From positions 1-64,000 of IMG/VR virus record IMGVR_UViG_3300017613_002552: DNA of 64,000 bases. One strand, written 5' to 3'. Below are positions 16,352 to 50,715 of this stretch, one piece after another. Position numbers and translations under genes: made by a program. The notes beneath the pieces were generated by a model. The model did no database searches. It was given only the letters and a program-made list of their open reading frames with translations, and was not told the DNA's origin. Origin of the DNA: a virus. Every line of letters starts with the position of its first letter. Position 1 is the stretch's first letter.

Positions 16352-16486
16352 GACCTCAACCGGTGACATATCGGGCGTTAAAGCACTCGCAATAGCCAAC
16401 AAAAATGCTGCTTGAATGGCAGTGACAACAAATATAATGATGATGCAGGCTATGACAGTACATATTGCCACTTGGTATTCCTTCAT
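16340..16486 (-). CDS. Small membrane protein after the tail-fibre gene
   Basis: 48 residues. ATG at 16486 forms an ATGA overlap with the stop of the 1911-residue fibre gene, the coupling used between other late genes. One hydrophobic helix covers residues about 6-35 (AICTVIACIIIIFVVTAIQAAFLLAIASAL), followed by a short polar tail. It could be a lysis or holin-like peptide, or an entry accessory; nothing more can be said. Confidence 0.55.
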   Translation of the reverse strand: MKEYQVAICTVIACIIIIFVVTAIQAAFLLAIASALTPDMSPVEVLRL

Positions 16487-19400
16487 GCTTGACCCTTGAG
16501 CCTTTCGATTTCAAGTCTTTGCGTCTCTAGCTCTCTCTCATATTTCAAGAAACGATCCTGAACCTCGCCGTAGAATTGACGAAGTGCATCCACGGTAAGC
16601 ATTTGGAGCCCTCGCACCCCATACCAGACACTTCCATCTTCATTGAAGGTCGCCACGCCAGTTTTCTCTAAAACTGGCCTTGCTTCATTTATGAACTCCC
16701 CCCATCGCTCCTTGAGCCCTGGAGCAGAGGCAGCGCGGAAGCCATGCAGGAGGGCCATGTCGTCGTATTCATCCCATGCCTCTTCAGCCACAGTTCCCTC
16801 CATGTGCAAGTCTCCGTCAGAGTCAAAGATGAATCTCGTATTTCCACCCGCCGCAATAGCAAGTATATTTTTATCGGCGGTTGGGTTTCCCCTTGTTGTG
16901 GTAGACTGTGAATACGTTTTCAGCATGATCGGCGCTACGCCAGCAGTACCTCTTGTATCTGTCTCTTGCCCAACGGCCTCAACTACAAATCCCTCTGCCT
17001 GACTCGCCGTTTCACAATACCCCTCGATTAACAACCCGCCATAGCTTGAGCTAAATGGCTTCATGTTGCCAAATGTTTTCGTATCGGCGTCACCTGTCAT
17101 TCCGTGCGCAACAGATGATCCTTGCAGTGCAAGAAATTCCTTTACTCCAGACAGATAAATATTCAAGCCATCATCCAGATATGTAGAGGAGTTTTGAAGA
17201 GAAAGGGTACTGCCAACCTGTACCGCCGTGTCATACGCGGTTATCTTTCTTGCAGTATCTATCCTTAGAGCAGCGTGCGCGACATTTGAAGAATCCTCAC
17301 TGTACAAATCTATTCCAGCACTGTCGTATGAGCCATTTGCGCTCGCCTGAACCATCACAAGGCTTCTGTCCGAACTGGTTGCAGGAGCGTAAGTACTGAG
17401 GGTGATGTAATAATCGCCGCTTATTACATTTGACCACAACTTTGCAATAGATGTCCCGCTGTCTACCCACTTAACAAGGTTAGCAACTCCCGCACCAGCG
17501 TTAATTGTGATTCCATCTGCATCAAGTGCAACTTCTCCGCTTCCAGCAACGAGGGTGCCATCTGTATCGATATAGAGAGTTGTTGTCTGTCCGCCACGGA
17601 ACAACATCCGTCCGTTTGTGTAATCCCACTTGATGTTGGCCCTTGGTGAAACACCTGCCGTGTTGTCTCCGATGAGCATGTCGCCAGCAAGCATACCTTC
17701 AGTATTGTATGTTTGGTTATTCGCAAAAACTGAAAAATAAGTAGAGCCAGGAGATGAAATATCAGAGCCTATAAATATGTCTCCATCGTGTTGCCATCTA
17801 CCTCTAACGGTAGAACCATACATAATTGATATTCCAGCATCGGCACCAGTTCCCACTTTAGTAAGAACATGCCCCGCATTTGAATATCCAGTTCTTGTGA
17901 AAATGGTCGATGAAGAATCAATCTCGAAATATATCAGCCCCCCGGCCTTCATCTTTAGGCTATCAGAGGCAACATGAACACTCTCACCACCAGACTCATC
18001 GCCAATGACTATTTCTCCAGCACTAACCACAAGCTGATCATCGCCGTCACTGTCATACATTGTAATAGCAGATGATGAAATATCCAAGTACGCTTCATCT
18101 GTGTCGCCAAGTGTCCAAGTCGCGGACGAAAGGCTACCAAGTACCGTTGCCCCATCCTTGAACTCAATCGATGAGCCGTCAAGATACAAGTGCTCACTGT
18201 CAGGATCACTGAGCACGATATTTCCGGCGGAAAGCTGATTTGCGCCTGTGTAGGTTGTGCCCCACTCGACGGTAGCCGCAGCAATAGCGAATGCTTCCGC
18301 TCCGCTGTCATCCCAGGCATACAGGCCCTTGTTGTAGCCCATGACCTTCGCGCCATCGTCATCGGCAAGCCAAAGTTCGTGATTCCCGCGCTTGACGGTA
18401 GGGGCCTGGCCGGTCTCGAAAAGCTGTCTCAACTCCGTTTCGGTCATGGCCCGGTCGAGCACCGCGACCCACTCACACGACTGGGCAGCATCGCCATCTG
18501 CAACCATCAGGTCGAGCCGTTCATCTGTGCCGCCGCCGCTGTTAAAACCGTCGCCAGGCGACACACTCACAGCGCTGGCCCAGGCATCGCCATACACAAC
18601 CCCGTACCAATTCAGACTTGTTCCGTCCCAAGTTACTGCTATGAAAACCGATTCACCCGCCTCGTAGTCAATGCTCTTCCCCTCCGTGTCCGTCCAAGGC
18701 GAATCGTTGTGGTCTACATAGTAGGCGGTTGTGCTGGTCGATGTGTACCAGGTGCCAATCGCCAGGCTTGGGCTGGCGGTGTAATCCCCAATTTGAATTG
18801 GCCTAAATGGATAGCTTGAATATCCGCTACCGGCCACATAGGTAGCGGTGTCGTTCTCGTCAATGTGTGGGATGAACGAACCGACCACAGTAAACGAGTC
18901 CAGATTGACCGCGTTCTCTAGGCGAAGCTCTTCGACACCGGACTGCACCGATGTTGAGTTGTGCGCTGTACCGCTCCAATCGACGCCATTCGCGGAACCA
19001 AATAGGAAGGGGCAAGGGACTGTCCCCGTCGTTAGAACCACTCCGTCGATGTCAATTTCTTCTCCGCTATCCAGGTAGAAAAGAACATACACAGCGACAG
19101 ACCCGCTTGAAGCCGTTCGACCCTGAAGGTAGGCAAATGTCCACTCGTCTTTGTCGCCGTCGCCGTAAGTGATATCGTAGGTTTGGGCCAGGGTAGCAGT
19201 ACCCCCGCTGTCATACAGGCGAACACGAACATTATTGCCTTTCCGATACCAGAAAGAAACCACAACGTCCTTGTCGCCACCGACCGCAGGTGCGTACTGG
19301 TTGTAAAATGCCTGATTCGATGCAGTCGATGTAAGATTCGCGTATCCAGCACCAATAAACGGCTCATCCGTGCACCGAGTCGCAGTAAGGGAAGGACTCT

Positions 19401-22218: not shown

Positions 22219-25200
22219 GGCGTCTCGCTGTCCACATCCTGTAGATTTTGCAGTGACATTTCATATTTGCCGCTGCCGATCACTTCACTTATTGAGAAAG
22301 CCCGGCGAGAGAAGGGTGTCCCGGTTGGCACCCTCGCCGTCTGTATCACATCGCACAACTCAAGTCCTGGGTGTCCATTTATGGACATTCTCTCATCTGT
22401 AATTCGTTGCGATCTCGCAACCTCCGCCTCGGCACGCTCAAGGCAAGCAACTCTAGTTCTCAGAACATTATCCTGCTGGTAGCCCCACTTGTGCCCAAGC
22501 AATTCTGCACCCCAATTACCATCCCGGCTCTCACCATAGGCATTACTGCCCACTACACGAGAGATCGACAATAATCTATCTGGCCTCCTTGAGATATCGA
22601 TCTCGTGCATTATACTCCTTGCATCAAGATCAACGTCCGTTCCATCGAAGATGCCAAACGTAAGCTCACCATCGCCGTTACAGAAAAACAAACCGTGTTC
22701 GTGCTTGCTGGCAATTTGCAACATGATCGATGCAATTGTATCATCCGGCTTTACTATCACTGCATCGATTGGATTGTAGAATCCATCGGCCACAAAGGTA
22801 TCGTGATTTGACGGAGAGCCAACTTGAGCATCGGAGAACAAGCCAATATACCCCTCGCTGAATGAGGTATCGTATGCCATTGCAAGGAGTCTGCCATCGA
22901 CAAACATGGTCAGGTAGCCACCACGAAGACAGAAAAGAACCTCGACCGTTCCGCTAAGTGTAACCGGCATGGAAAAGAGCGTTGACCACGCCGTGTCTTT
23001 TTTTCGTATCTCGGCAACGGTTGAGGAGACAACGGCAGCATAGCACTCTGTTATCCCATCATCTGCCCTGGCTATGATTCCGGTCTCCTCTGCCAGCACC
23101 GCAAGGGTTGCCTTGAAAACAATGTCCGTTGCTGATAAATCTGAACGCAACACAGTTGGATCAGTAGAGCTTCTATAGCCCTGCGCGTATCCACCAGAAA
23201 CAGACCATGTACCATCTACACCAGGAGTATCCCAGGAAGAAGAGAATGAAGTGCCAGGGAAGGCGTCGTTTGCTTCCATGACTTCATCTGTCTCAAGTCC
23301 TGCTGAACCAGCAAGGTAGGCCATTATATCTGAACCGGAAAGCGGCGGGTACATGGAGTAAATCCCAACATTGTCAAATCGAACCGTTGAAGAGCTTCCC
23401 TCTGGTATTTCGCAGTACAGACCAGCATAGCCGTTAAACCCAAGATTCTTTGCAGAGCCGCTTGCGTCAAGATCAGACAGCGCTTCGACCCAACTGATTC
23501 CGTCTGTTGAGTAATGAGCACCAAGGCGACCATGTTTCAGTGTAGCCATGATCCAATAATCTGTGTCGGCGGACCAGCCAAGTGGACTGGAAGACATAGC
23601 GATAAGATCGTAATCCCAATTTGTTACATTGAGGCGATAAGCTTCAACCCTGTCGGATGTTTCATTGTATCTGACAAGAAGCGCCATTGCCACACCATCA
23701 GAGTTTGTCCTATAGTGGACGAGCAGGCCCATTTTGATGTCTGTAATATCCGCCTGCGCATTCACCTTCGCCATTACAATGTGAGCGTCGTCAGCGTCGT
23801 AGCCAGCAATGATCATCGAGGTCTTATCTGCTTCAGTTGCCTCAAGGGTACCTGAGGCGATTTGCCACACGCCGCTCTGGGAAACAAAAAGATCGATATC
23901 TAACTCGTCTGAAAAGTCTGTGTAAAACATATTCTGACCAAGTAGTAAGTGGGGCTTCCCGCTCTTTGATGCAGTTGCCCTTGAGAATAGATCGAGCGCT
24001 TCCACGGCAACCGCCCCGCCGATTCCTGGCCTATCGGCGACCGCTGTGATTTGACCGGTGAACCTCTGCTGCAACTCTTCTCCCGCCGCTGTCATGTATC
24101 CGCAGGAGACCCTTAGAATCGAGCCGCCCTTCAATAAAGCGCCATCGTTGTAAAGCCCACCAATGTCAGTGACGGCAATGCCCGTTTTGGCAGCGACTAG
24201 CGCGGATTGATCTATACTGATATCGTTCTGGACATCATTTGTCAGTTCGGTCTCATTTGGCGTAGAACCAAACCACGAAGAAGCAGGAGTTAGATAAACC
24301 AAAGTATCTGTTGATCTAGCTACTGGTATGCAAATATAGCCGCTGTCTTCAGCAATTCCAGCTATTTCATCTGTGCTCTTAAGAGATAGACCAGTCGGAA
24401 CCATGTGAAAGGATTTCACATCCGAAGTTCTAGCAATAAAGAATTCGTATACAGAATCAGCACCATATTCATCGGCAGCGAAAATGTACTTCTCCACAAC
24501 ACCAGCAAACATGAAGCCGTTTGTCCACCTTGAGAGACCGGCGAGAGAGAGGATGTAGTCGAGATTCGTTGGAAGCCCACCAAACACAGGCTCTACAATG
24601 CCCCAGGTCTCGTTCTTGCACCTTGTCCTGAAAGACCACTCCCAACCATCTTCTTGATAACCCTTTATTGCGTTGATTGCCAGGGAATGATCGCTTTCGT
24701 CATTTGCATCTTCCCTAGCATGAATTTGCCACGAATAACCTCCGTAACTGAAGATGAAATTGCTTCCGCAATCCCACGCACCATCATCTGACCAGGACCC
24801 GACCTTGCTCGGCCTAGATGCTCTGTAGATAGTCGTATTATACGCAATGCCCTCATAGGCGAAAAAGTAAATGGTGTTTATGTTGGCAATGCTAACCATG
24901 TAGGTATCCAGACTTGAATCGCCGGTATCAACTATTTCATAGTCCGATCCCCAAGTCTGGCCGCCATCATCTGACTCAATTCCTCGCACAGTTCCATCAT
25001 CCATGCCATATATCACAAGGATGTCATCGCCATCTACGAAGGCATCGTGATTTCTAACAGAGGATGTAGACAGGGATGTAACAAGATTTGACCAACCAGA
25101 ATCCCAATCAGAAGATTGGGTAACACCTGTCATTCTCTTGTACTGAATTGCCGTGTCCGGTGAATCGTGACCAGTGGCAAAAAAGTAGTCATCTCCTTCC

Positions 25201-25361
25201 TGGAGTCGGCGAACGGCGACGGAGCAAGTTAGACCATCAATAGCTTCCATTTCCAGCGAGACAGGCTCGACCGTAACAGAAAAGATAGAGCTACGGCTCC
25301 TCTCTGAGACAGCAGCCTCAAGTGTCGAAGAGATGTCTATCACGGAACTGCATACCCCCAA
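22215..25361 (-). CDS. Tail-tip protein with Asp-box beta-propeller
   Basis: 1048 residues. Residues about 55-330 contain an Asp box (SDDGGQTW, 130-137) and similar W-rich turns, the mark of sialidase/BNR-type propellers. Residues about 500-900 hold two LamG-like jelly rolls (FDNVGIYSMYPP; TVEVLFCLRGGYLTMFVDGRLLA). The C-terminal 200 residues resemble the hub region of tail-tip (Tal-like) proteins. Its place between a distal-tail-like protein and the fibre fits baseplate assembly and glycan binding. Sialidase activity is not shown: no catalytic set was identified. Confidence 0.6.
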   Translation of the reverse strand: MGVCSSVIDISSTLEAAVSERSRSSIFSVTVEPVSLEMEAIDGLTCSVAVRRLQEGDDYFFATGHDSPDTAIQYKRMTGVTQSSDWDSGWSNLVTSLSTSSVRNHDAFVDGDDILVIYGMDDGTVRGIESDDGGQTWGSDYEIVDTGDSSLDTYMVSIANINTIYFFAYEGIAYNTTIYRASRPSKVGSWSDDGAWDCGSNFIFSYGGYSWQIHAREDANDESDHSLAINAIKGYQEDGWEWSFRTRCKNETWGIVEPVFGGLPTNLDYILSLAGLSRWTNGFMFAGVVEKYIFAADEYGADSVYEFFIARTSDVKSFHMVPTGLSLKSTDEIAGIAEDSGYICIPVARSTDTLVYLTPASSWFGSTPNETELTNDVQNDISIDQSALVAAKTGIAVTDIGGLYNDGALLKGGSILRVSCGYMTAAGEELQQRFTGQITAVADRPGIGGAVAVEALDLFSRATASKSGKPHLLLGQNMFYTDFSDELDIDLFVSQSGVWQIASGTLEATEADKTSMIIAGYDADDAHIVMAKVNAQADITDIKMGLLVHYRTNSDGVAMALLVRYNETSDRVEAYRLNVTNWDYDLIAMSSSPLGWSADTDYWIMATLKHGRLGAHYSTDGISWVEALSDLDASGSAKNLGFNGYAGLYCEIPEGSSSTVRFDNVGIYSMYPPLSGSDIMAYLAGSAGLETDEVMEANDAFPGTSFSSSWDTPGVDGTWSVSGGYAQGYRSSTDPTVLRSDLSATDIVFKATLAVLAEETGIIARADDGITECYAAVVSSTVAEIRKKDTAWSTLFSMPVTLSGTVEVLFCLRGGYLTMFVDGRLLAMAYDTSFSEGYIGLFSDAQVGSPSNHDTFVADGFYNPIDAVIVKPDDTIASIMLQIASKHEHGLFFCNGDGELTFGIFDGTDVDLDARSIMHEIDISRRPDRLLSISRVVGSNAYGESRDGNWGAELLGHKWGYQQDNVLRTRVACLERAEAEVARSQRITDERMSINGHPGLELCDVIQTARVPTGTPFSRRAFSISEVIGSGKYEMSLQNLQDVDSETP

Positions 25362-35952: not shown

Positions 35953-37089
35953 TTACAGGTCGGCGTCAAAGATGAAAATCTGGTCGGCGCGTTCGAGAAT
36001 TGGGAATACGACTTCGCCGACACCAACACGGTCCTCATACGGAGGCTCAACGTCCTTGCCGTGCCAGGTGTACTTGCCAGGCTTGTACGTTCCATCTGGT
36101 GCAGGCGCAGAGGCAGTGTAGCCAACATCGACACCGGGCGGGATGACAATCAAGCGGTTCTCTCGCAGGAACGGGACGGTGTTGAGCGTAGGACCATCTG
36201 GGCTGGTGATATTACTGCGATACGTCCAGTTGGCATTGTACGGAATCAGTTCATACCCGAACTGGACCTTCAAGAACTCCTGGAACTTACTTGTGTTGAT
36301 GAAGGGAGTTCCCTTCTCGGTGCCTTGCACCCAGGCCAGAACCTTTGTGTTGAAGGCGATATACGAAAGCAAGGTTCCACCCATGATGATCTTGGAGCCA
36401 TGCGCATTGACGCCGATGGTCCTCTCGATCAGGTGGGCAATGACCTCAAGGTCCAGGATTGGATCACTTGAGGGATCAGTCCACGCAACCCCACCACCGG
36501 CGCGAGCGTTGTATCCAGAGAGGGTCGTTGCGGCTTGCTGGAACACAGCCCTGAGCGGGAAAGAGATGGTGATCTGAACGTCACCCCAACTCGGCATCGG
36601 CGATTCGATATCGGCCCCGGAGCCATCAACTGGGGGCCACACAATCTCGCCTTGCAGAGCGTGCATCTGCATATACTCGATCTGCGAATCTACCTCGTCA
36701 TCGCAGGCTGCGGCTTTCTTCCGCAACTTGTCCTGTGCTTCCTTCCGCATATTCCAGGCATTGGTGCCCACGGCAGGCTTGCCAGGCTCGCGCAAAATCA
36801 TCACGTCCTGCGCGTGCATCACGCGGGAGGCCATGACATTTTTGGCCTCGGAGAACTTGCTGGCAAACGGCAGTTCAGAACCAGGAACCGGCACGCCGTT
36901 GATGGCGTACAAGCCAGCCAGGTTGTTCTCACTCGATACGACATCCCAGGTCAATTTGTACGCGCCGACAGGCTTCTTTGGAAGAAGCGTGCTGCCAAGG
37001 TACTGAGCCCGATACGCATCAAGCTCCGGGCGGGTCTTGATCACACCGGTCATGAACTGTTTCGTCAGCGGGTTTGGATGTAGTGCCAT
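35953..37089 (-). CDS. Major capsid protein (lambda gpE family)
   Basis: 378 residues, ATG after GAGGAGGAAAAC. Family features: N-terminal ALHPNPLTKQFMTGV, a central ALQGEIVWPP loop typical of phage_cap_E, DPILDLEVIAHLIERTIGVNAHGSKIIMGG, and C-terminal KYTWHGKDVEPPYEDRVGVGEVVFPILERADQ. Length near lambda gpE (341) and relatives. It is preceded by decoration and protease/scaffold genes, the lambda/Mu order. Confidence 0.85.
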   Translation of the reverse strand: MALHPNPLTKQFMTGVIKTRPELDAYRAQYLGSTLLPKKPVGAYKLTWDVVSSENNLAGLYAINGVPVPGSELPFASKFSEAKNVMASRVMHAQDVMILREPGKPAVGTNAWNMRKEAQDKLRKKAAACDDEVDSQIEYMQMHALQGEIVWPPVDGSGADIESPMPSWGDVQITISFPLRAVFQQAATTLSGYNARAGGGVAWTDPSSDPILDLEVIAHLIERTIGVNAHGSKIIMGGTLLSYIAFNTKVLAWVQGTEKGTPFINTSKFQEFLKVQFGYELIPYNANWTYRSNITSPDGPTLNTVPFLRENRLIVIPPGVDVGYTASAPAPDGTYKPGKYTWHGKDVEPPYEDRVGVGEVVFPILERADQIFIFDADL

Positions 37090-37520: not shown

Positions 37521-38687
37521 TTACTCCTCCCACTCTTTGGCGTAGTCAAATTCATCTTCTTCGCCATCTTCTTCCCGACCGGAAGAACTTTTTCGTTCCA
37601 GCGGGACACTGCCTGGCATCACTTCGATCAGGCTGCCGACAGCATCAATCAGATATTCCAGCAAGAGTCGGCCCGGTTTCTCGCTATCTTTCGACAGCTT
37701 CACAGGGTCATCGCCCTCACCAATCTCTCCGAATCGGAGAATACCGCCAAACCATTCAATGAGCGGCTTCGGCAAACCATTCCCCTCTTCATCCCGATGG
37801 GTTTCGGCCCTTGCTACAACAGCAGCAACTTTGGCCTCCATCGCCTCGGCCTCAAGCTTGACCAGTCTCTCCTCGGCGAGCTTGAGATTCTTTCCGTCTT
37901 GCTCAAGTTCGGCTACCTTGGCGGCGAGAGAAGCCTTCTCTTGCTCAAGCTTTTTCAGTTCTTTGTCACTCACTGAATCCTCCTCTTCTTCTTCTACTCC
38001 TACTTCAAGGTTAACGATTGGGCAAAAATCACCGGTGGCAAGCTCAAGATCGAGCTTGACATCATCTCGTTTCCAATTGCGGTGAAACTCCATGCTGGAA
38101 TACTTGAATTCACCACCTGAGATTGCCTGGATACCAGGAGGAGTCGGATCGACCAGGCCCCAAAACTCCTTCTCAGTAGGCTCAGAATCCAGCTTCACAT
38201 CGCCGACAACTACCTGGATTTCATCACCTAACAGCAAGTGCGTAAACCAGCCAAGGGCACCAGCTTGCGGCTTGTGCCGGGCATCATACGCCGCATCCTG
38301 CCCAGTCACCTGGTCGGCGAAATTCTTCTGCATTGCAAGGAAAATCGGCCTGTTCAGAACAAAGGGGCCACTTGGATGATCGAAAAATCCAGGGTTCGCC
38401 AGGTGGACAAGGAGCTTGCTTTCACCATCGATCTCAACGACCTGCGTTGGTTTCAGTTTCGGAATATACGGTCGATTTGTTGCAGCGGCACCAATGAGGG
38501 CGGGGCCAAATCCGTCTGAGAGCATAATCTCAAGGGATTCCGCCTTGGACTTTTTCAGCGCGGCAGTGCATATCGCATGAGCCTGAGACTTCGCATCCTG
38601 ACCATCTTTTGCAGTTGGCCTAGAAGCAGGGTCCTTCTTCCACTTTGCCAAGAGCCCGGCAACACATTTATCAAGATTTGCTGGCAT
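37521..38687 (-). CDS. Capsid protease/scaffold (Mu I-protein type)
   Basis: About 388 residues from ATG 38687 (GAGGAG six bases upstream); ATG 38693 would leave the ribosome site too close. Residues about 75-230 resemble the Mu I-type protease: FVLNRPIFLAMQKNF, YDARHKPQAGALGWFTHLLLG and GEFKYSSMEFHRN. The rest is a Glu-rich coiled coil (KELKKLEQEKASLAAKVAELEQ) as in an attached scaffold, ending in an acidic tail. In the family the protein assembles the prohead, then cleaves itself. It might also trim the giant portal fusion upstream. Confidence 0.65.
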   Translation of the reverse strand: MPANLDKCVAGLLAKWKKDPASRPTAKDGQDAKSQAHAICTAALKKSKAESLEIMLSDGFGPALIGAAATNRPYIPKLKPTQVVEIDGESKLLVHLANPGFFDHPSGPFVLNRPIFLAMQKNFADQVTGQDAAYDARHKPQAGALGWFTHLLLGDEIQVVVGDVKLDSEPTEKEFWGLVDPTPPGIQAISGGEFKYSSMEFHRNWKRDDVKLDLELATGDFCPIVNLEVGVEEEEEDSVSDKELKKLEQEKASLAAKVAELEQDGKNLKLAEERLVKLEAEAMEAKVAAVVARAETHRDEEGNGLPKPLIEWFGGILRFGEIGEGDDPVKLSKDSEKPGRLLLEYLIDAVGSLIEVMPGSVPLERKSSSGREEDGEEDEFDYAKEWEE

Positions 38688-38706
38688 TTTCATCTCCTCA
38701 ATTGCT

Positions 38707-38735
38707 ATAATACCATAAAACTCTTATGGTGTCAA
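38707..38735 (-). promoter_or_regulatory. Sigma-70 promoter inside the late operon
   Basis: On the minus strand TTGACA (38735-38730), 17-base spacer, TATTAT (38712-38707). It lies in the gap between the glycosyltransferase and protease/scaffold genes and would start transcription near 38700, right before the scaffold-capsid block. It gives the head genes an extra promoter independent of the terminase promoter. Confidence 0.65.
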
Positions 38736-40025
38736 GTGGGTTGATGGGATTACATTGACACCAGTTTTGTTAAGTTCAGCGGCGAGAGCGTAACAGCTTT
38801 TGATTTTCTCCTCGAATAAACTGGCGGTAGTATCCCAAGAAAGGCTTCCAGCCAGCTTTAAGCCACGAGCTATCCACATCTCTCGCTCAACTTTATCTTC
38901 GTAAAGGTAAAGAACTGCCTCGGCCATCTCCGTGCAACTCACAAGGGGCAACTGAGCGCCGGTGTGCCAGAAATCCACGGCACTGGGCTGCATCATAACA
39001 GCGCTCTCGCCATAGATTTCCGATCTTGCAAAACCATCGTCAGTTGTAATTACTGGAACACCGCAAGCCATTGCTTCGATGGCCGGTAGATTGAAGCCAT
39101 GAGCACTCGCCGGATCAATGTAGACATCGAAGAGGTTCATCATGCTTATGAAATCCAGCTTTGACAAATTTTCTAGCTCCTGCTCCTCTTCTACTGGTAG
39201 CGGGAGATTCAGTAACTCTTTCAGGTCCCCACTTCTTGGCCTACCTACAAACTTCCTGCCAGATTGCGCAGGCTTGAGAGTCACCACGTCTTCAACGCCA
39301 AACTCTTTGATCATCCAGCCGAGTTCCCATCCACCAATATGGCCGTCGCCCTTCTCCTCGCAGTGGAGATAAACCATGAACTTCGGGCCGATCCGCTCCT
39401 TCAGTTGTCGGGCCATTCCTAGTACGGCGGGTTGACGATTGGTACGCTTGTTCACGCCAACCATTCCAATGATGAACTTGTCACCCCACCCAACGATTTC
39501 CTTCAATTGCATTCTAGTTTCTTCATCGTATCGGCGGAATGGGGCATGATCGGCACCATGATACACATAGTCAACTGCATGACCATACTCCATTAACACA
39601 TCCCTTCCCCACTTTGTGTAAGTCACTGGCTCCTTTACTATCGAAACCTGTGTAACAACGTGTGGGTTCAATGGGGAACCTTCTATCGGGAAATACGTCA
39701 CTGCCGGGAGAAGCTTACCAGTAACGGCGAGGGTGCCAAAGCGGTTTCGCAGCGTTCCAGGGTCTCCAAGGAAAAAGATCACATCTGGGTCGGCTTGCTG
39801 CAAGAAATCCACAGAGCACCTGAAACCCAACGGGTCATTTGCCGGTACTGGGTAGTACATATTGTATGGCGAAATGTCACTTGGAATTACTCGGTGCATA
39901 GCACCGAGGACACTTACCTCGAATTCATCCATCGGCCAGCGGGACATGATAGCCCTGGCTACGACGCCGAATCCTGAAAAAATGAATGGCGAATCTCCAA
40001 TGTACGCGACTTTGATTTTGCTCAT
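38724..40025 (-). CDS. Glycosyltransferase, GT4-like (GT-B fold)
   Basis: 433 residues. Start IKVAYIGDSPFIFSGFGVVARAI has the Gly-rich nucleotide-sugar loop of GT-B enzymes; the C-terminal domain has HGFNLPAIEAMACGVPVITTD, the GT4 E-x7-E region that binds the donor. It is embedded among structural genes, between the coiled-coil membrane protein and the capsid protease. In phages such enzymes decorate virion proteins or DNA, or alter host surface glycans. The acceptor cannot be read here. Confidence 0.75.
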   Translation of the reverse strand: MSKIKVAYIGDSPFIFSGFGVVARAIMSRWPMDEFEVSVLGAMHRVIPSDISPYNMYYPVPANDPLGFRCSVDFLQQADPDVIFFLGDPGTLRNRFGTLAVTGKLLPAVTYFPIEGSPLNPHVVTQVSIVKEPVTYTKWGRDVLMEYGHAVDYVYHGADHAPFRRYDEETRMQLKEIVGWGDKFIIGMVGVNKRTNRQPAVLGMARQLKERIGPKFMVYLHCEEKGDGHIGGWELGWMIKEFGVEDVVTLKPAQSGRKFVGRPRSGDLKELLNLPLPVEEEQELENLSKLDFISMMNLFDVYIDPASAHGFNLPAIEAMACGVPVITTDDGFARSEIYGESAVMMQPSAVDFWHTGAQLPLVSCTEMAEAVLYLYEDKVEREMWIARGLKLAGSLSWDTTASLFEEKIKSCYALAAELNKTGVNVIPSTHLTP

Positions 40026-41754: not shown

Positions 41755-42321
41755 TTATGAAGCGCTGGCCGTACAGGTCATCGTAACCGTCAGCGTGTCA
41801 TCGTCATCAAGCGTCTTGTCTCCGGCAGAGAAGGCACCACCACCGTACAGGGTCCCGGTGCTTCCACCTTTGGTGTTATTTGTGACAAGACAGGCACCAC
41901 CAACGGTTGTATCGTTGGCTGAGATGGTGAATACTGCCGGGCTACCGCTGTTATCGACACTCTGGCCTGAGACACTGCCAAAGGTTGCAGTTTGCCGCGT
42001 GGCTTCGTCGTAAGCTGTGACCTCAGTCCATCCGGCGTGAGAAGCCATCGTATCCCCGGCAGCAACAGAGGGCGTGCCATCTGTCAGGAGAATGTAAAAA
42101 GCGGCGGTGTAAGCAGAACCCTTCAGGTGCTTGTCGAGGCTGTCATCTAGCCCCTCGTTGACGACGAGGTTATGCTCAATGGTATCTCTCCACTTCACCT
42201 TGCCGTCTCTGTCGCGGCATACAAATTCCCATACATTCTTCCGGCCCATTGCGGCCAACGCACCGGCACCGGCACCGGCACCGGCACCAACCTTGACGTT
42301 TTTACTGGAATCCTGAATCAT
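41755..42321 (-). CDS. Virion structural protein with Gly-Ala repeat
   Basis: 188 residues. An N-terminal GAGAGAGAG run is coded by a 6-bp repeat. The body has WEFVCRDRDGKVKWRDTIEHNLVVNEGLDDSLDKHL, then YILLTDGTPS and FTISANDTTVGGACLVTNN, a pattern common in a widespread phage structural family of unclear role, often near fibres or neck. Its neighbour has a matching style. Confidence 0.55.
   Translation of the reverse strand: MIQDSSKNVKVGAGAGAGAGALAAMGRKNVWEFVCRDRDGKVKWRDTIEHNLVVNEGLDDSLDKHLKGSAYTAAFYILLTDGTPSVAAGDTMASHAGWTEVTAYDEATRQTATFGSVSGQSVDNSGSPAVFTISANDTTVGGACLVTNNTKGGSTGTLYGGGAFSAGDKTLDDDDTLTVTMTCTASAS
42261..42288 (-). repeat. 6-bp repeat coding Gly-Ala
   Basis: CACCGG repeated four times plus a partial unit. 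It encodes the GAGAGAG linker of the structural protein at 41755-42321 and is a likely site of slippage. Confidence 0.75.
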
Positions 42322-43913
42322 TTTTCCTCCATTTTTCTATCTTCAAAAGAAATAAAATACGCTCTTCCTTCGTGACCAACAGAGATGGACCTATTCTCTC
42401 TCAGGACAAACAGCGTTCTTTCTGCCGGTGTCACGATATCCAAATCTACAATAGTGCCACTTGTTTGAATTGCACTGACGACTTGAAGATCAATTCCTGC
42501 AATAGAAGCTACTGTGGCAAGAATTTCTGCAACAACAGAAGCGTTCAGGCCCAAATCAGCGCCAGCACCGGCCCGGCCAGCAATAGAGTCTGCCCTTGAT
42601 ACCGATATCGAAACACTACTCAACGCTCCAGAGGCACCACTCTCAGTCAAGCCCCTGGAGTGCCCAATCGAAAGCGAGACATCGTAGTTCAAGCCAGATG
42701 AGGCGCTTATTGCTAAAACAGTGCTTTCCACAATCGAGACGAGCGCCGACGCAAGTCCAGAACTGGACAAACCCGCCGATCTTTCGCCCAATACAGAGGC
42801 TTCAGTACTTGCTCCTGCCGAAGCAGCCATAGACTCGTAAATCGCTACGGCGAGAGAGGAGGTTGCTTGAACACCCGCCCCTTGAGAAATTGACTTCAGG
42901 GAAGAAAGCTCGCTATCTGAGAGGGCAACAGCAAGACCATCCTCACTAATGCCCTGAGTCAAGGAAAGACTGGCACTCGCCGCTAACTGGGCAAGGGCTT
43001 CCTCCGAAATACTTACAACCTTCTCAACTTGAACCCCACCAGCGACTTGACCAAGTGCGGATTGAGAAGCGGCAAATACAGAAGATAATGCAGCGTCACC
43101 AACTGACTCACCAAGTGCGGATTGAGAAGCAGTCAAAACGGAAGATAGCGCCATGTCACCAACAGACTCACCAACGCCGGATTGAGCAATTGTGGCAATT
43201 CTGGACACTGACAGCGATACTTCCACATCTTCTGATGCACTTGCAGGCTGCGTAAAACCCATGACTGGCGCAGGGTAGTAAATTGGTATGTGATCAAGGA
43301 CAGATGGCGTATTGTTCAGTGAAAGAGTGTTTCCACCTACCCGATCCTCAAGCCCCCTGATAAGGGGCCAGTAGCCAACCAAGCTCTGTGGCCTAACAAG
43401 TAATGGCGATGCTCCAGCAGCAAGAGAAGCTATTTCGGCTGCCGTCAGCGCAACATCCCAGATAGCCGCCTCTGCAATGAACCCGTTGCACCAATTCTCT
43501 GACGGAGAATACATCACCGCTCCAATGCTCACCCTATCTGCATCGGTCGGAGCCACGTCTGTAGTCTCCGAACCAGAACTACCACCATCGATATAGGCAG
43601 TCCGTGACGTATCCGAGGTAAAGACGGCTGCACCATGATGCCAAGTGTCTTTAGTGTAGCCCGTACTCGTGAGTGCAGTGTATGGATTGCCCTCGCCCCT
43701 CGCCCTTGCTGCAACCGGATCGCCAGATTCATACCCTGCTGCAATTAGTGCCCAGTAATTCTTGTTGCGATCCTTGTCGCCAAGGTAGATCAAGCCGTGG
43801 TTGTCATAGCCGACATCGATATTAAACCAGCAGGCCATTGTGAGCGGCGTATCTGTTGCCGGTGCCGCATCGACATATAGGCATTCATCTGAGCCGTTAA
43901 AAGAGTACGCCAC
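42318..43913 (-). CDS. LamG-domain virion protein with Ala/Ser helical repeats
   Basis: 531 residues. Residues 1-205 are a LamG/concanavalin-type sandwich (MAYSFNGSDECLYVDA; MACWFNIDVGYDNHGLIYLG; WHHGAAVFTSDTSRTAYIDG; GFIAEAAIWDVALTAAEIASLA). The rest is very rich in Ala, Ser and Val, with imperfect repeats of about 22 residues (TASQSALGESVGDAALSSV). The long repeat region may form an extended stalk. A surface-exposed sugar-binding virion protein is likely; it overlaps both neighbours by a few bases. Confidence 0.65.
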   Translation of the reverse strand: MAYSFNGSDECLYVDAAPATDTPLTMACWFNIDVGYDNHGLIYLGDKDRNKNYWALIAAGYESGDPVAARARGEGNPYTALTSTGYTKDTWHHGAAVFTSDTSRTAYIDGGSSGSETTDVAPTDADRVSIGAVMYSPSENWCNGFIAEAAIWDVALTAAEIASLAAGASPLLVRPQSLVGYWPLIRGLEDRVGGNTLSLNNTPSVLDHIPIYYPAPVMGFTQPASASEDVEVSLSVSRIATIAQSGVGESVGDMALSSVLTASQSALGESVGDAALSSVFAASQSALGQVAGGVQVEKVVSISEEALAQLAASASLSLTQGISEDGLAVALSDSELSSLKSISQGAGVQATSSLAVAIYESMAASAGASTEASVLGERSAGLSSSGLASALVSIVESTVLAISASSGLNYDVSLSIGHSRGLTESGASGALSSVSISVSRADSIAGRAGAGADLGLNASVVAEILATVASIAGIDLQVVSAIQTSGTIVDLDIVTPAERTLFVLRENRSISVGHEGRAYFISFEDRKMEEK

Positions 43914-45011: not shown

Positions 45012-48000
45012 TTAATCTTCTCCATAGAGCCACTTGAGGTCTTTGTATCGACTCCACTCTGCGGCACGTCCAAACTTGCTCACGGCGGAGAAGTAGGATC
45101 GGTCATCCCAACCATTCTTCGGCTCTCCACCAAGCGCCTTTGTAAAAAGTCCGTGCATATAATCGTCATCGTTGATGTTGAAGTGTATTTCGTCAATGAG
45201 CTTCCATGCTTTGTCTCTGTCCCCACCAGAAAGAACACCGGCGAGAGAGGCAACGGTTCCCATGTGCCCCTTGTAAACAGGACTTGAGTACTTGTTGGCC
45301 CAATATCGATGGTTGACGCCCATTGCTCGCCGTGCAAGTAAGTCTGTTGTACCCTCTTCAACAAGGACGTTTCCGTAATTCCTGTGCGCTCTGCCCTCCT
45401 TGATCTGCAATCCGAGTGAACCATCGGAGCGCTTGCGCGTGTGCGTCATTTCGTGTACGATGGAGTAACTGCCAAACTTGCGGTCTTTCTCTATTTTTTC
45501 AAGTAGGTGTGGACCTACAAAGATGTCACCATCCCGCGCAGCCGCATACGTTCGCTTGGTCTTCAGCAGACAGGCTTTGTTCTGCCCACAAACGGCAGCC
45601 CCATAAGCGGAACCATCTGCGTAAAGTGTGAGGTTTGGACCTTTGATCCCAAGGGCCTCAGAGGTCATTGCGGCAGCATCATTCACCCTGAACGCCGCTC
45701 TTTCACTTACCTTGCCACTGAGCTTGAACCTGTCTTCTGGGTATGGCTTCGCCGCATGTCGCTTATCTGTGAACCTTCCACCTGTATCATGGTACGGGTT
45801 TTCGAGCTTTTCACTGCCATCGCCACGATCCACGGCAAGTCCAATGAGTTCTTGTGTCAACCCGTAAATGTTTCTGACCATTTCAGCATCGATATAGGCT
45901 CTTCCATCCTCCACTGGGAAAATAGACTTCCCGCCGTCATCCTCAAATGAAATGAAGTCAGCACCCTCTTCTACCATCCTCATCATTGCGGCGAGAACAA
46001 AGAGTGCAGCAGCAAATCTTTCACCACCACCAGCCTCCAACTTCTTATACAGGCTTTCGATAAATGACCAATCTTGGCGCTCATAGGCAGCATTGATCTC
46101 TTGCATAATGTCTTTAGAGCCACCATGATCTGGGTGATAAACCTTCGCAAGTTTGCGGTACATACCCTTGAATTCTTTTTCTGTAGACCCAGAGGGCCAA
46201 GAGGATTTCCCAGACGGCTTATAATCCCACCGGCTCTCTCTGTAGGTCCTCTCGTACCTCTTCTTTTGTTTCTCCCACTGGCTCTTCCTCCACTCCTCAT
46301 CCTTCTTATATTTTCTCTCATCTACGAGGTCCCTGGCAAGCGCAGCAGAGCACGAAACACCAAAGGCAGCAACACCTACCTTAAAAGATGTTGCAAATAC
46401 TCTTGCAGATTCTTTTTCTATCTCACCGTATGTTAGGCTATACTCATTGCCGCGAATCTTCATCGATAGTGCAATGTCTCGCTTCTTTTTCCCCTTCGCC
46501 TTCCTTATTTCTCCAGATGTAATATTGACAACGCCAGAGCCAATGGCAAGAATGCCACTGGTAACAAATGCTGCCCATCCAGCTTGCGCCACTGCATGAC
46601 TGGCAGTAGCAAACCTGCCCAAGTTATCATGATGTGGATTATAAAGCTCGGTGCCACTTTTGTTATACGGAGCTATTAACCTGATCTCTTCAAAAAGCAA
46701 CCATCGCTTGACCTCATCCTTTGTGTTTTTTGCTTCCTCGACTAACTCCTCGAATCTCTCAACCTCATCAGAGAACCATGTAAATTCAGCGCTCTCTGGC
46801 TTGTGTCCAAGAAGTTCTTCGTAACCTGTTCCCCAATCGATACCCGTGTCTCTCAGGTGACTACTGAGCCAGCTATAAGATGGCCTACTACTCGATTTCC
46901 AATTCGAGTTGGTGCCCTCAAAGAAAGATCGTGTAGACTTGAAAGAATGTGTGTTCAAGTGCAGATCATCGATCAGCTTCCATGCCTTACTCGCATTTCC
47001 GCCGCTAGTATGCCACGCCCAATCTGCAACGGCGACGGTGTAGTGCTGGTACACTGTGTGCGTTGTCTTTTTGCCGTAAAAGTCCTTCATAAAACGGCGA
47101 GTGAGGAGTTCTGTTGCACCCTCCTCTACATCGTTCGGGAAAAACTTCGACCACTTGGTTAGTTGAGGTCCACCAAGCGGCAGAGTCTTGCCGCCCTTTC
47201 TCCTTCTTGAGTGGATGATCTCATGGGCAACTGGGTGAGCGGGGTGAACATCTTTGTACTTGCCAAATAGATAATCGCTCTCTTTGCCTTTCTCAATAGC
47301 TTCAAGCCCCTTCGGGCTCACATGCGTCGTTTTTGTAACCGGGTTGTAAGCTCCAAGGGCAGGAACTCCATAGGTGTTAGCAAGGAATCCGGGCCACTCC
47401 TCATGGAGCTTCACATTCTTGGCGCTGATGCCGCTTATTCGTTCCTGGAGCGCACCAGCAACTCTTCCAACCTCTTCCTTTCCACCAGCAAAGCCAATTG
47501 CACCGGATGCGCCTTGTTTACTGGTGAACCTGCCCTTGTCATCATGGTAAGGGTTGAAAAGCTCGACCGTGCTATCGTCGCCGCGAAGACCAAGGCGTTC
47601 AAGAATCTCAACTTGTCTGACAGAAAGCGCGACAAGAGAAGTGTTAAGGGCCTGCTGTATCATTTCTAGGGATTCGGTCTTCCCCTCTTTATCTCTCTGG
47701 GAAGACCACCGGCCCTCGCCGCCAGGTTGCTGCTTCGCCTTCTCCTCTGCATCGGCCTTCTTTGCTTTCTGTTGCTGCTCAAAAGCTTCCTGCGCTTCCT
47801 GCTTGGCCTGCTCCTTTATCTCATCTACTTCTTTTTCTGTGAGCGTTGGAACCCCACCCTTAATGAATAGCTCGCGCCAGTTCACATTCTGCAAGGCATC
47901 GCCAGCGGTGTTGCCAGCAACAGCCATGAGCTTGAATAGCAATGGGAGAACCCGACTATTCGCTCCCTGAAAATCAAGCCAAATCTTCGTTGCCTTGGAG

Positions 48001-49157
48001 CCATTGTACCGAAGGGACTTTCTGAGAACGTATTGAGAGATATGAAGGCCAATATGCGATAGAATTCTCTCAGTGTCCAGCATTACGGCGAATTCATCAT
48101 TTTCGCTATCCGCGCTCCCTGTCAGCAAGAAACGATTGATATTATCTGACAGCAATTCAAGAGCAGAAATAAAGCCGTTGCCTGCCTGATCGTTGCCTGT
48201 TTTTTGTAGATCGATTGTCCAAAGTCGCTCGCCGGATTCTCTGTAGGTATCAGAGGGCAACGCAGCATAGTTTGTCCTATGCAAGCTCTGTGCCATTTGT
48301 ATGGCCCAGGCCATGCAATCAACCTTCTGACCATTTACCAAAATGCGGCCCTTGCTCGGCGCACGGACGATAACGGTCCCCTCACCAGCCCTTTTCAGGT
48401 AGCGAAGAAACGATCTCCACACCAATTCAAACCAGAACCACCAGACATATACTGGTTCAAGGATGCTCTTTCCTTGCAGGTCCCCAAAAAGACCATCGTT
48501 TGCAATTATGAGCGCCCGATCCAGTCCAATTGTCACGGGGTCTTCCATCCACGATGCGGCTTGGACAAAGCCCTCGAAGGATCGTGTCTTTTTGTTACGA
48601 AGGATTTCCTGGATCGTATTTGGGTGACAGCCATGAATGTCATCAATAACCCAGTACGGATACGCAGATTTTGCCAGCCCATATCCTTGTGGGTATTCAG
48701 GCGTCCAGACCGTCTCTCCATAGAATGCACCGTACTCAAGGAAAGTCAGAATCTCACCAATCACCTTCGGCAAAATTTCTCGAAGGTTAGCATGAACTAC
48801 TTCTGACAACCTCTCATCGGCAGATTTGACACTGAAGCCAGAATCAGCGTTGACGACACCAATAACCGGTGCCTTCTTCAGTGCCATTGGGTATGCGATT
48901 TGGCCGGAGGACATCATCTGATCAATTATGTCCACGTTGACACCGCTCGACGCACCCCTGTTCAGCATTCCAACATGGTAGTCTAAAAGGTATCCTTCAA
49001 CTTCTTCCGGCGATGGCTGACTAGACCTACTCATTGGAGGAAGTGCCCCGTAACTGCCTTCAACCTCAAGCATTACGGTTTGTCGCTCTTCTTCTGGCAG
49101 GGTAGCCAGTGCCTTTTCCAAGGCTGACAGATCAGCCGATTTGCTGTCGTAAGTCAT
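45012..49157 (-). CDS. Portal protein fused to two zincin-like domains and a J domain
   Basis: 1381 residues from ATG 49157 (AAGGAA upstream; GTG 49193 is possible). Residues 1-500 are a Mu gp29/DUF935-like portal (YGAFYGETVW; IMAQSLHR). After it come three NPYHD/NPHHD-GRF linkers (about 535, 840, 1120). Domain A: HEIIH 645-649 then EEGATELL 678; domain B: HEMTH 1235-1239 then EEGTTDLL 1267. Both also share a GG---KAWKLID--H segment, so they are duplicates. Between them: two membrane-like helices (about 850-940) and a J domain (HPD 1008-1010). In other phages the GRF linkers occur in polyvalent proteins injected with DNA. Normal portals are 400-600 residues. Confidence 0.85.
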   Translation of the reverse strand: MTYDSKSADLSALEKALATLPEEERQTVMLEVEGSYGALPPMSRSSQPSPEEVEGYLLDYHVGMLNRGASSGVNVDIIDQMMSSGQIAYPMALKKAPVIGVVNADSGFSVKSADERLSEVVHANLREILPKVIGEILTFLEYGAFYGETVWTPEYPQGYGLAKSAYPYWVIDDIHGCHPNTIQEILRNKKTRSFEGFVQAASWMEDPVTIGLDRALIIANDGLFGDLQGKSILEPVYVWWFWFELVWRSFLRYLKRAGEGTVIVRAPSKGRILVNGQKVDCMAWAIQMAQSLHRTNYAALPSDTYRESGERLWTIDLQKTGNDQAGNGFISALELLSDNINRFLLTGSADSENDEFAVMLDTERILSHIGLHISQYVLRKSLRYNGSKATKIWLDFQGANSRVLPLLFKLMAVAGNTAGDALQNVNWRELFIKGGVPTLTEKEVDEIKEQAKQEAQEAFEQQQKAKKADAEEKAKQQPGGEGRWSSQRDKEGKTESLEMIQQALNTSLVALSVRQVEILERLGLRGDDSTVELFNPYHDDKGRFTSKQGASGAIGFAGGKEEVGRVAGALQERISGISAKNVKLHEEWPGFLANTYGVPALGAYNPVTKTTHVSPKGLEAIEKGKESDYLFGKYKDVHPAHPVAHEIIHSRRRKGGKTLPLGGPQLTKWSKFFPNDVEEGATELLTRRFMKDFYGKKTTHTVYQHYTVAVADWAWHTSGGNASKAWKLIDDLHLNTHSFKSTRSFFEGTNSNWKSSSRPSYSWLSSHLRDTGIDWGTGYEELLGHKPESAEFTWFSDEVERFEELVEEAKNTKDEVKRWLLFEEIRLIAPYNKSGTELYNPHHDNLGRFATASHAVAQAGWAAFVTSGILAIGSGVVNITSGEIRKAKGKKKRDIALSMKIRGNEYSLTYGEIEKESARVFATSFKVGVAAFGVSCSAALARDLVDERKYKKDEEWRKSQWEKQKKRYERTYRESRWDYKPSGKSSWPSGSTEKEFKGMYRKLAKVYHPDHGGSKDIMQEINAAYERQDWSFIESLYKKLEAGGGERFAAALFVLAAMMRMVEEGADFISFEDDGGKSIFPVEDGRAYIDAEMVRNIYGLTQELIGLAVDRGDGSEKLENPYHDTGGRFTDKRHAAKPYPEDRFKLSGKVSERAAFRVNDAAAMTSEALGIKGPNLTLYADGSAYGAAVCGQNKACLLKTKRTYAAARDGDIFVGPHLLEKIEKDRKFGSYSIVHEMTHTRKRSDGSLGLQIKEGRAHRNYGNVLVEEGTTDLLARRAMGVNHRYWANKYSSPVYKGHMGTVASLAGVLSGGDRDKAWKLIDEIHFNINDDDYMHGLFTKALGGEPKNGWDDRSYFSAVSKFGRAAEWSRYKDLKWLYGED

Positions 49158-50715
49158 ACATTGGGTTCCTTGGGTCAAATTCTGACCAATCACTCATGAT
49201 TTCGACATCCGCTCCATCGATAACACCCATAGTCGGTATAAGAATGTTGACCGGATCGAAATCTGTATCAAGCTCTGTCGGGACCATTGGCAGAGAGACT
49301 ATTCTCTCCGGCATTTCAAAGTCGTACCCACCCATCTCAACTAGGGCATCATACGCCAAGATAGCAGCAATTACAAGGTCATCATATTGTCCAGATGGCG
49401 CAGAGTATTGATTGTTTCCAAGGTCCTCATAGGTGAGAAGCTGGTAATAAAGAGCTTTGCTTGTAATAGCCACCAAGCCGCCAGCAAGGGCAAGCGCGAA
49501 CTGATTCACAAGCCTCGGCTTGCTTTTTGATGTTGTTCTTGAGAGTCCAATTTCGGACACGTCATCTTCAGGCAAAATGTGCCTATTCTCTACCGTTAGA
49601 CCTGGGCCATTCTCCTCGATCAGCATTAGACCGGGCCACTTTTTGTGCCATGCAGACACATAGCCCATCATTTCTACGCGCTCGCCGCCGATCTCTTCTG
49701 TTTTCCCCGCCCACTCATCAAGGGGCATCTGGTTTGCTTCGCTTGCAACCTCCATGCCATACTCATTGAAGGTGACAACTGCGTTAAAGTCACGAGTGCG
49801 AACCTTCTTATTCCGCCTGATTTCGGCAGAGTCAATACCAGAAGCAAAGGTCCCCTTATTGACTGGCAAATCGGCGAGTTCTTGTGGGAGCCCATGCTCA
49901 AAGAAGCACTTTGCAAGGTAGGTTGGGTCAAACGCAGGAGAACCAGTGCCAAGGAAAACAAGCTCAAACTCCTGGTTAATTTGATTATCGGTCATCCCAT
50001 CCGATGCATCCGCCAGCCATTTACTTCCAAAGCCGCAGTCCGTGTAGTGGACCCGTATCGCCCTGAAGGTGCTTTCCCCGCCGTCTGCCTGCATCCACAA
50101 ACGAGCAAACGCACCAGAAACACCGTTCGGCGAAGAGGCTGCAACCACCTGACCACCATGAGAGGTCGTTGGCTTAATCGAGGTCCAGGTCTCCTCTGCG
50201 TTGTCGAGGTGGGCAAACTCGTCAAGGAAAACAAACCGCGCAGTATCACCACGACCGGAATCACCGGTGGTTGTGAGTGAGTCAATGCTCGATTCACTGG
50301 TTATGTGCTTACCTGCTCGCCTGTGAACAACTGCCAGGCGCGTTTGTGATGTGGATGAATATGGCCTTCGGATGAAGTCTGGGAAGTTGTCAATAACAAA
50401 CTTCACCTTGGCGAGCAACTTGATCGCCTTCTTCTCTTTTTGGGAAAGCAAGAGGATTTCAATGTCTGGATTGAAGAGAATCAGCCAGGCCACAAAACCA
50501 GCAATTGTCCAAGATGCACCGACTTGACGGCTCTTGAGAATAACCGCGTTTTGGCCGCTTTGCAAGTACTCAATGAGGTCTTCTTGCCAGGGGTACGGGA
50601 CCCACTTGATCTTCCCTCTGATAATATGCCTCAAGTGGCCGTATTTTTCTATGGTGTACAAGGCAGATGCGCGACAACGCTTATACTCGTCTGCCTCTTC
50701 CCTGGTCAACTTCAT
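49132..50715 (-). CDS. terL: Terminase large subunit
   Basis: 527 residues. Walker A-like SRQVGASW (62-69), Walker B FVFLDE (161-166), then the C-terminal RNase-H-like nuclease with SGIDSAE (Asp near 295), MLIEEN and DDLVIAAILAYDAL. It powers DNA translocation into the prohead and cuts the concatemer. The start overlaps the small subunit by TAATG. The packaging type (cos or headful) cannot be told. Confidence 0.95.
   Translation of the reverse strand: MKLTREEADEYKRCRASALYTIEKYGHLRHIIRGKIKWVPYPWQEDLIEYLQSGQNAVILKSRQVGASWTIAGFVAWLILFNPDIEILLLSQKEKKAIKLLAKVKFVIDNFPDFIRRPYSSTSQTRLAVVHRRAGKHITSESSIDSLTTTGDSGRGDTARFVFLDEFAHLDNAEETWTSIKPTTSHGGQVVAASSPNGVSGAFARLWMQADGGESTFRAIRVHYTDCGFGSKWLADASDGMTDNQINQEFELVFLGTGSPAFDPTYLAKCFFEHGLPQELADLPVNKGTFASGIDSAEIRRNKKVRTRDFNAVVTFNEYGMEVASEANQMPLDEWAGKTEEIGGERVEMMGYVSAWHKKWPGLMLIEENGPGLTVENRHILPEDDVSEIGLSRTTSKSKPRLVNQFALALAGGLVAITSKALYYQLLTYEDLGNNQYSAPSGQYDDLVIAAILAYDALVEMGGYDFEMPERIVSLPMVPTELDTDFDPVNILIPTMGVIDGADVEIMSDWSEFDPRNPMYDLRQQIG

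Follow-up and report, generated by a model that had tools for sequence, protein, structure and literature searches.

A phage portal protein extended by motif-opened zincin-like and J-like modules that may represent virion cargo

A portal protein gene in a 64,000-nucleotide stretch of viral DNA (the window; positions 1 to 64,000 of IMG/VR record IMGVR_UViG_3300017613_002552) encodes a 1381-amino-acid protein in which the portal domain is followed by about 850 extra residues. These residues form three modules, a zincin-like module A, a hydrophobic/J-like module, and a zincin-like module B, and each module is opened by the motif NPxHDxxGRF (Table 1). The initial annotation had described a portal fused to modular cargo of the polyvalent type, and that description held for both the PHROG 113 portal and the three tagged modules. 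The frame is open throughout from an ATG start, with an alternative GTG start possible at 49193, and the fused gene was confirmed as real and no assembly artefact. The portal C terminus is probably, in our judgment, a tandem cargo of two gluzincin-like domains and one hydrophobic/J-like module that would be stored in the head, freed, and discharged with the DNA.

Residues 1 to 534 were identified as a portal by their profile match and by their position directly after the terminase large subunit gene, and the order terminase-portal-cargo was preserved in relatives. All seven family members scanned matched PHROG 113, and Pfam Portal_Mu matched the fused protein at 5.8e-5, slightly under its cut-off. 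Phage_Mu_F, the domain that would have placed the protein among the MuF toxins, was not matched when the whole protein was scanned against Pfam up to E=1, and a search of the fused gene for an internal start yielding a free tail revealed none. With a portal, two zincin-like domains, and a J-like domain, the polypeptide combines at least two unrelated domains in a phage with portal-terminase packaging, as polyvalent proteins do. In P22, the C-terminal barrel of the portal is directed inward, and the ejection proteins are clustered there (PMC4992974); by analogy, the portal studied here would be a dodecameric ring with its C terminus inside the head. Since portal C termini face the head interior, every subunit of the ring, which presumably has twelve, would project approximately 850 residues into the capsid where the DNA leaves.

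Table 1. Coordinates of the fused gene, its parts, and neighboring head and tail genes in the window
Feature	Position	Strand	Evidence
Whole fused gene (portal + three tagged modules)	45012..49157	-	Open frame; whole-protein relatives L061, L104/L121, L123, L125
Portal domain, residues 1-534	47556..49157	-	PHROG 113 3e-12 (1e-11 with whole protein); aligned relatives; stand-alone L126 portal ends at same boundary
Module-start motif 1, NPYHDDKGRF, residues 535-544	47526..47555	-	Sequence motif
Zincin-like module A, residues 535-839 (HEIIH 645, EEGATELL 678)	46641..47555	-	Homology to B; L061 module 51% identical; AlphaFold topology
Module-start motif 2, NPHHDNLGRF, residues 840-849	46611..46640	-	Sequence motif
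Hydrophobic + J-like module, residues 840-1119 (HPD 1008-1010)	45801..46640	-	Pfam DnaJ 1.2e-5 (sub-threshold); phrog_13942 1.3e-7 (J region); L061 counterpart
Module-start motif 3, NPYHDTGGRF, residues 1120-1129	45771..45800	-	Sequence motif
Zincin-like module B, residues 1120-1381 (HEMTH 1235, EEGTTDLL 1267)	45015..45800	-	Homology to A and to L061, L104, L125, L126 modules
Terminase large subunit, directly upstream of portal gene	49132..50715	-	Pfam Terminase_6N 5e-13
Probable Mu gpI-like head protease/scaffold	37521..38693	-	39% identical G005 orthologue, above PF10123 Mu-like_Pro cut-off
Major capsid protein	35953..37089	-	PHROG 29 1e-18; orthologues in 4/4 large relatives
Tape measure protein, 2197 aa	25795..32388	-	PHROG 1535 1e-22; orthologues in relatives

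Modules A and B proved, as proposed earlier, to contain two copies of one metallopeptidase-like domain, aligning at E=7e-20 with 32% identity. All 12 aligned domains keep HExxH and the downstream EEG glutamate without change, giving the gluzincin arrangement of HExxH and a Glu ligand on a later helix (H111, E112, H115, and E145 in domain numbering). The AlphaFold model (pTM 0.68, pLDDT 67) consisted of a helix, three strands, the HExxH helix, and the Glu helix, with helices at 106-115 and 140-160. The top five Foldseek matches of this model in the PDB were all zincins, but with E-values of about 1; the top matches in BFVD included IrrE-like and SprT-like proteins (E, 0.04 to 0.4). No structural or PDB profile match reached significance, profile searches of the PDB gave marginal gluzincin matches, and Pfam recognized no domain in either module. 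Motifs and model topology fit the proposed zincin identity, and assignment of A and B as two divergent gluzincin-like metallopeptidase domains is partly supported. Minigluzincins and thermolysin-like gluzincins (selecase, projannalysin, and vibriolysin) likewise have an HExxH helix followed by a Glu-bearing helix, and it is these proteins that gave the weak Foldseek and profile matches; unlike known gluzincins, the modules carry their own signature, EEGxT(D/E)L. The zincin tree was poorly resolved and was left out of consideration for the order of events.

The J domain, previously called clear, was partly supported. DnaJ profile positions 11 to 51 aligned at residues 990 to 1026, and HPD, which is also kept in the counterpart in L061, lies between helices II and III as in J domains; however, the J module alone scored 25.8 bits against a Pfam cut-off of 27.8, and no helix I of the four-helix fold was recognizable. 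The model of this module had a pLDDT of 49, and Foldseek returned no J-domain match. Among the relatives, the module was seen in L061, 37 to 41% identical and at another position in the tail, and was absent from L104, L123, and L125. Matches of the J core in L134 to L140 were unrelated phage proteins, and L133 had no open frame containing HPD. The two membrane-like segments that had been noted were weak, with Kyte-Doolittle maxima of 1.61 and 1.49, the first of which was reached by 95 of 2,000 shuffles, but similar hydrophobic stretches were present in relatives (up to 2.19 in L125).

The initial annotation had proposed a search of relatives for the same fusion and for modules encoded as separate genes, and both forms were found. 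Whole-protein tblastn against 50,697 phage records gave no match and exact-peptide scans gave no relatives; relatives were reached only through the motif, used as a DNA pattern, and through alignments. Portal-tail fusions were present in five contigs belonging to this phage family, with variation in module order or number: portal-J-zincin-zincin in L061 (1413 aa), portal-zincin-TM-zincin in L104/L121 (1598 aa) and in L125 (1479 aa), portal with one zincin only in L123 (904 aa), and portal-motif followed by the contig end in L124. A further candidate, L132, was dropped, being a 72-amino-acid frame with no portal. In a sixth contig, L126/G005, a stand-alone portal of 566 amino acids is followed by tagged genes of 405 and then 672 amino acids for homologous zincin modules, and in the portal tree this split form clusters with the fused L061 and L104 (90/93). 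Between the window and L061, identity was 28% for the portal, 41% for the terminase, 51% for zincin A, and 37 to 41% for the J module, and the module order was swapped. The permuted orders, together with the split genes, imply mobile cargo modules beside the portal. An assembly error or degenerate reading frame, to which the unusual length might point, has next to no probability: it is refuted by the recurrence of the same fusion type with permuted modules in independent contigs, and it is further contradicted by similar GC and GC3 over most of the gene (slightly lower in the J module) and by the kept catalytic residues.

Recurrence of the motif is not due to chance, because eight fixed residues are repeated within one protein and the modules of relatives stand behind the same motif. 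The motifs had been taken for linkers known from the work of Iyer et al., but the motif was not mentioned in that paper (PMC5512222) as far as it was searched, the term "linker" was absent, and NPxHDxxGRF was not found in the literature searched. In 30 of 82 complete proteins, the motif lay no more than 30 residues from the start, so that it looks like a module-start tag; a role solely as a linker or solely as a cleavage site is accordingly disfavored, and since the motif also opens free-standing genes, "linker" is probably not its whole role. In a wide sample, the domains preceding the motif were MuF (12/43), portals of several families, and head protease (4), and those following it were ADP-ribosyltransferase (12/100), ART (5), Zeta (4), and ART-PolyVal (3), in addition to LPD3, papain-fold toxin, and ATLF and M91 zincins. 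Untagged neighbors, used as a control, contained ADP-ribosyltransferase in 1/100 (p=0.0025) and MuF in 2/100 (p=9e-6), and tagged genes occurred in tandem inside head gene clusters. We tentatively suggest, at somewhat less than even odds, that tailed phages in general use NPxHDxxGRF, together with a preceding [VIL]x(K/L)(F/A/Y), as a cargo tag: a short signal for docking or head loading would stand at the start of every effector module and bring the module, whether fused to a head protein or encoded freely, to the portal/MuF apparatus. The portal in the window would then be an extreme case, with three tagged modules, one of them co-chaperone-like, joined to the ring.

The architecture and the shuffled or separate parts in relatives suggest that effectors are stored as cargo where the DNA leaves the head. 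Interchangeable modules would recombine at the motif, and the tails would be incorporated along with the portal in procapsid assembly and cut at the motif or close to it, either by the head protease of the phage or through the zincins' own activity. The Mu gpI-like protease/scaffold homologue is a candidate that could release tail parts; PF10123 did not match the copy in the window directly, and its assignment comes only through orthologues. Freed cargo would exit with the DNA; inside the host, target proteins would be cleaved, or processing completed, by the zincins, and the J-like domain would engage DnaK. The 2197-residue tape measure indicates a long-tailed phage, in which large folded cargo would have to thread the tail tube, and this counts against delivery.

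It is unlikely that the tail is instead an assembly aid, with the J-like domain recruiting DnaK for portal folding or assembly, the zincins serving as extra maturation proteases, and nothing being delivered. J domains are classically co-chaperones of DnaK, and the cargo lies within the head gene cluster. Zincin autoprocessing in phage heads has, moreover, been proposed by Iyer et al. (PMC5512222). However, a separate Mu gpI-like protease/scaffold homologue exists, most related portals have no J module, the L126 portal stands alone with its zincins as free genes, and elsewhere the motif stands ahead of toxins and ADP-ribosyltransferases, proteins that play no part in assembly. Slightly more doubtful is an internal core or pilot above the portal, as in P22 and T7, whose hydrophobic segments would enter the host membrane and whose zincins would clear envelope proteins for DNA entry. 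Hydrophobic stretches do reappear in modules that are homologous or hold the equivalent position, with the L125 value the highest, and in P22 the ejection proteins gather on the inward side of the portal crown (PMC4992974), but in a long-tailed phage the tape measure normally fills that role, the segments in the window are weak, and the module set is variable, with one zincin in L123.

Several known systems come close to the protein in the window. Portal-effector fusions and polyvalent proteins are already known: Iyer et al. (2017) described PBECR and 2H domains fused to portal and MuF proteins, as well as an inorganic pyrophosphatase domain fused to a portal (PMC5512222), and the earlier claim of a new way to deliver effectors was therefore too strong. 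The protein in the window resembles polyvalent proteins in its unrelated domains in one polypeptide, its zincin-like metallopeptidases, which occur there in one or more copies, and its head gene context; it differs in having three modules on the portal, permuted in relatives and with the zincins split off in one, and in its J domain and module-start motif, which term searches did not find in that paper. MuF polymorphic toxins of temperate phages, about 20% of which have metallopeptidase domains (Jamet et al. 2017, PMC5576092), likewise consist of a head protein, encoded next to the portal, with a C-terminal effector extension, whereas here there is no MuF domain, the portal itself is the carrier, and several modules replace one. 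Like ejection proteins of the P22/T7 type, the tail would place protein mass on the inward side of the portal, poised to exit with the DNA, but those proteins are separate and belong to short-tailed phages, whereas this cargo is found in a long-tailed phage, is covalently attached to its portal, and has peptidase-like and J-like domains. Giants of the N4 virion RNA polymerase type are also virion-packaged multidomain proteins with a zincin domain (PMC5512222), but the present protein has no polymerase and uses the portal as its carrier.

What appears to be new is the J domain, the tag, and the existence of permuted and split forms. If the preferred reading is right, the portal is both DNA gate and cargo rack, with contents swapped by recombination at a short motif, and a portal-borne J-like domain would offer an unusual way of reaching host DnaK. 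The motif renders the loading and release of internal virion proteins directly testable, and it offers a search handle for phage-delivered effectors overlooked by standard domain searches: it led to relatives for this orphan tail and picked up many effector domains that were already known.

The fused portal-tail gene lies in a virus record of 68,942 bases. The PHROG 113 portal family was matched by the whole protein (1e-11) and by residues 1-534 alone (3e-12), as well as by six collected relatives. Behind the portal domain are three tail stretches, each opened by one copy of a module-start motif, NPxHDxxGRF. A zinc-ribbon-like segment, CxRxGCxNxxxxGxxxCSxxC, opens the portals of the viral contigs L061, L104, L123, L124, and L126 and is absent from those of the window and L125.

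Coordinates of the portal fusion, its motifs, and associated loci (window positions unless a residue or contig is named)
Location	Strand	Feature
49157 to 45012	minus	Fused portal-tail frame, 1381 residues; adjoins terminase large subunit, directly after terminase gene
Residue 535		Module-start motif 1, NPYHDDKGRF
Residue 840		Module-start motif 2, NPHHDNLGRF
Residue 1120		Module-start motif 3, NPYHDTGGRF
42318-43913		Protein of head cluster with LamG/concanavalin-like domain (Pfam 5e-17); may decorate capsid or bind carbohydrate
38724-40025		Glycosyltransferase gene within head cluster; kept 3' of portal cargo in L123, L125/L127, and L126
37521-38693		Probable Mu gpI-like protease/scaffold; divergence hides it from Pfam, and orthologues in relatives' records G005 and G001 were needed to recognise it
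16483-25361		Pair of very large ORFs (1911 and 1048 aa) following tape measure and unmatched in PHROG; probably encode proteins of baseplate or tail tip
L126:5948-7000		Motif-bounded zincin homologue without HExxH, beside an intact one; dead or repurposed copy
L074:4217-7843, L033:2031-4505, L080:3404-9661		Rows of genes with motif at start or contained; probably cargo operons
L033:157-972		Protein opened by variant tag FNPYHDPKDGRFTT
L033:2985-3998		Protein opened by variant tag FDENQPRKPKGTPEGGQFAST

The first and third stretches share homology (E=7e-20), and in both of them EEGxT(D/E)LL follows HExxH by about 30 residues. Across 12 aligned domains from the window and its relatives, both His and the Glu of HExxH and one Glu of EEG are invariant. 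An AlphaFold model from this alignment (pTM 0.68) showed an N-terminal helix, three strands, the HExxH helix, and a Glu-bearing helix, which is the zincin order and that given for polyvalent metallopeptidases by Iyer et al. (PMC5512222). Pfam recognised no domain in either window module; single members of the wider alignment weakly matched DUF6782, a putative metallopeptidase family (1e-3). The best five Foldseek matches in the PDB were all zincins (vibriolysin, ACE three times, and selecase), but with E about 1; in a viral library, IrrE-like, SprT-like, and polyvalent proteins ranked near the top, none significantly. A profile search of PDB sequences gave three marginal matches, two of them gluzincins. 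The duplicated zincin domains of the initial annotation have good but not final support as gluzincin-like modules.

The middle module had been described as two membrane-like segments and a clear J domain. It contains two to three hydrophobic stretches, though modest ones, and a region matching DnaJ (1.2e-5, slightly below the threshold of Pfam), in which HPD is at 1008. The parts that match a J domain are helix II, HPD, and helix III, all kept in L061; however, helix I was not recognisable, the AlphaFold model was poor (pLDDT 49), and Foldseek returned no J domain, so the region should be called J-like.

Whole-protein searches found no relatives of the fusion. A DNA pattern of the motif, run over viral contigs, recovered L061 and L104, and L121-L127 were then added through alignments. 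They are members of a single family of long-tailed phages. TerL identity is 31-41% in every one of them, and the four large records share capsid protein and tape measure orthologues and a protease/scaffold gene, whose G005 copy scores as a Mu-like protease. The portal is followed by zincin-J-zincin in the window, J-zincin-zincin in L061, zincin-TM-zincin in L104/L121 and L125, one zincin in L123, and the motif and then the contig end in L124. L125 has an additional 657-aa tagged gene after its fused portal. In L126, a stand-alone 566-aa portal ends where the motif starts in the others; two genes follow it, one for a tagged zincin (405 aa) and one for two tagged modules (672 aa). Among the window and its relatives, no separate gene for the J-like module was seen. 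Between the window and L061, identity is 28% for the portal, 51% for the first zincin, and 37-41% for the J module, and module order is swapped, the pattern given by recombining modules. In the portal tree, L126 groups with two fused relatives, so the fusion state changes within the family. Misassembly is therefore ruled out; covalent attachment of the zincin modules to the portal is also shown not to be essential in this family.

The C-termini of portals face into the head, where ejection proteins cluster in P22 (PMC4992974). The most economical reading is that the tails would be effector cargo racked on inward-pointing C-termini, freed by proteolysis, and leaving the head together with DNA, although we infer the step from architecture to delivery. 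Iyer et al. (PMC5512222) proposed the same general fate, including zincin self-processing, for polyvalent proteins, and MuF toxins follow the same logic but one gene downstream (Jamet et al. 2017, PMC5576092). In rival readings, the zincins and the J-like domain would serve assembly, or the tails would act as pilot proteins in DNA entry. A fixed assembly role fits poorly with a module set that varies and is partly free-standing. A pilot role of the short-tail type is less needed because the phage has a 2197-aa tape measure. The new route of effector delivery once envisaged is too strong a claim, because fusing an effector to a portal is known in itself: portal fusions with PBECR, 2H, and InPase domains have been described (PMC5512222). 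As far as the literature searched shows, a portal with a J-like domain (searches gave nothing relevant), the duplicated zincins in permuted multi-module tails, and the split counterpart of the zincin modules appear to be new.

The same appears to hold for a shared module-start motif that, in many different phages, ties effectors to head proteins; such linkers had been taken as known from polyvalent proteins, but NPxHDxxGRF was not found in print in the literature searched. A pattern scan conditioned on NPYHD..GRF gave at least 142 distinct occurrences, and among those listed conservation extended beyond the searched letters: position -4 is [VIL], position -2 is K in 114 of 142, and position -1 is F/A/Y, while T/A at +10 and S/T at +11 precede Gly/Ala-rich sequence. 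With starts taken as the first ATG, 45 of 82 complete dereplicated proteins among the matches listed had their first copy in the opening 60 residues (random placement predicted 15.9 and never exceeded 29 across 2000 draws), and 30 of them had it in the opening 30. Among the matches listed, MuF (12 of 43), several portal families, and XkdF protease (4) lay upstream of internal motifs, and downstream were ADP-ribosyltransferases, Zeta toxins, ART-PolyVal, LPD3, a papain-fold toxin, two zincin families, RelA/SpoT, and 2H. Among 100 sampled untagged neighbours, there were one ADP-ribosyltransferase and two MuF (p=0.0025 and 9e-6, respectively, for the difference from tagged proteins). Tagged genes stand in rows inside the head gene clusters of three contigs (L074, L033, and L080), adjoining portal, MuF, head protease, or capsid genes. 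The variant tags that open L033 proteins suggest a tag class broader than the searched pattern.
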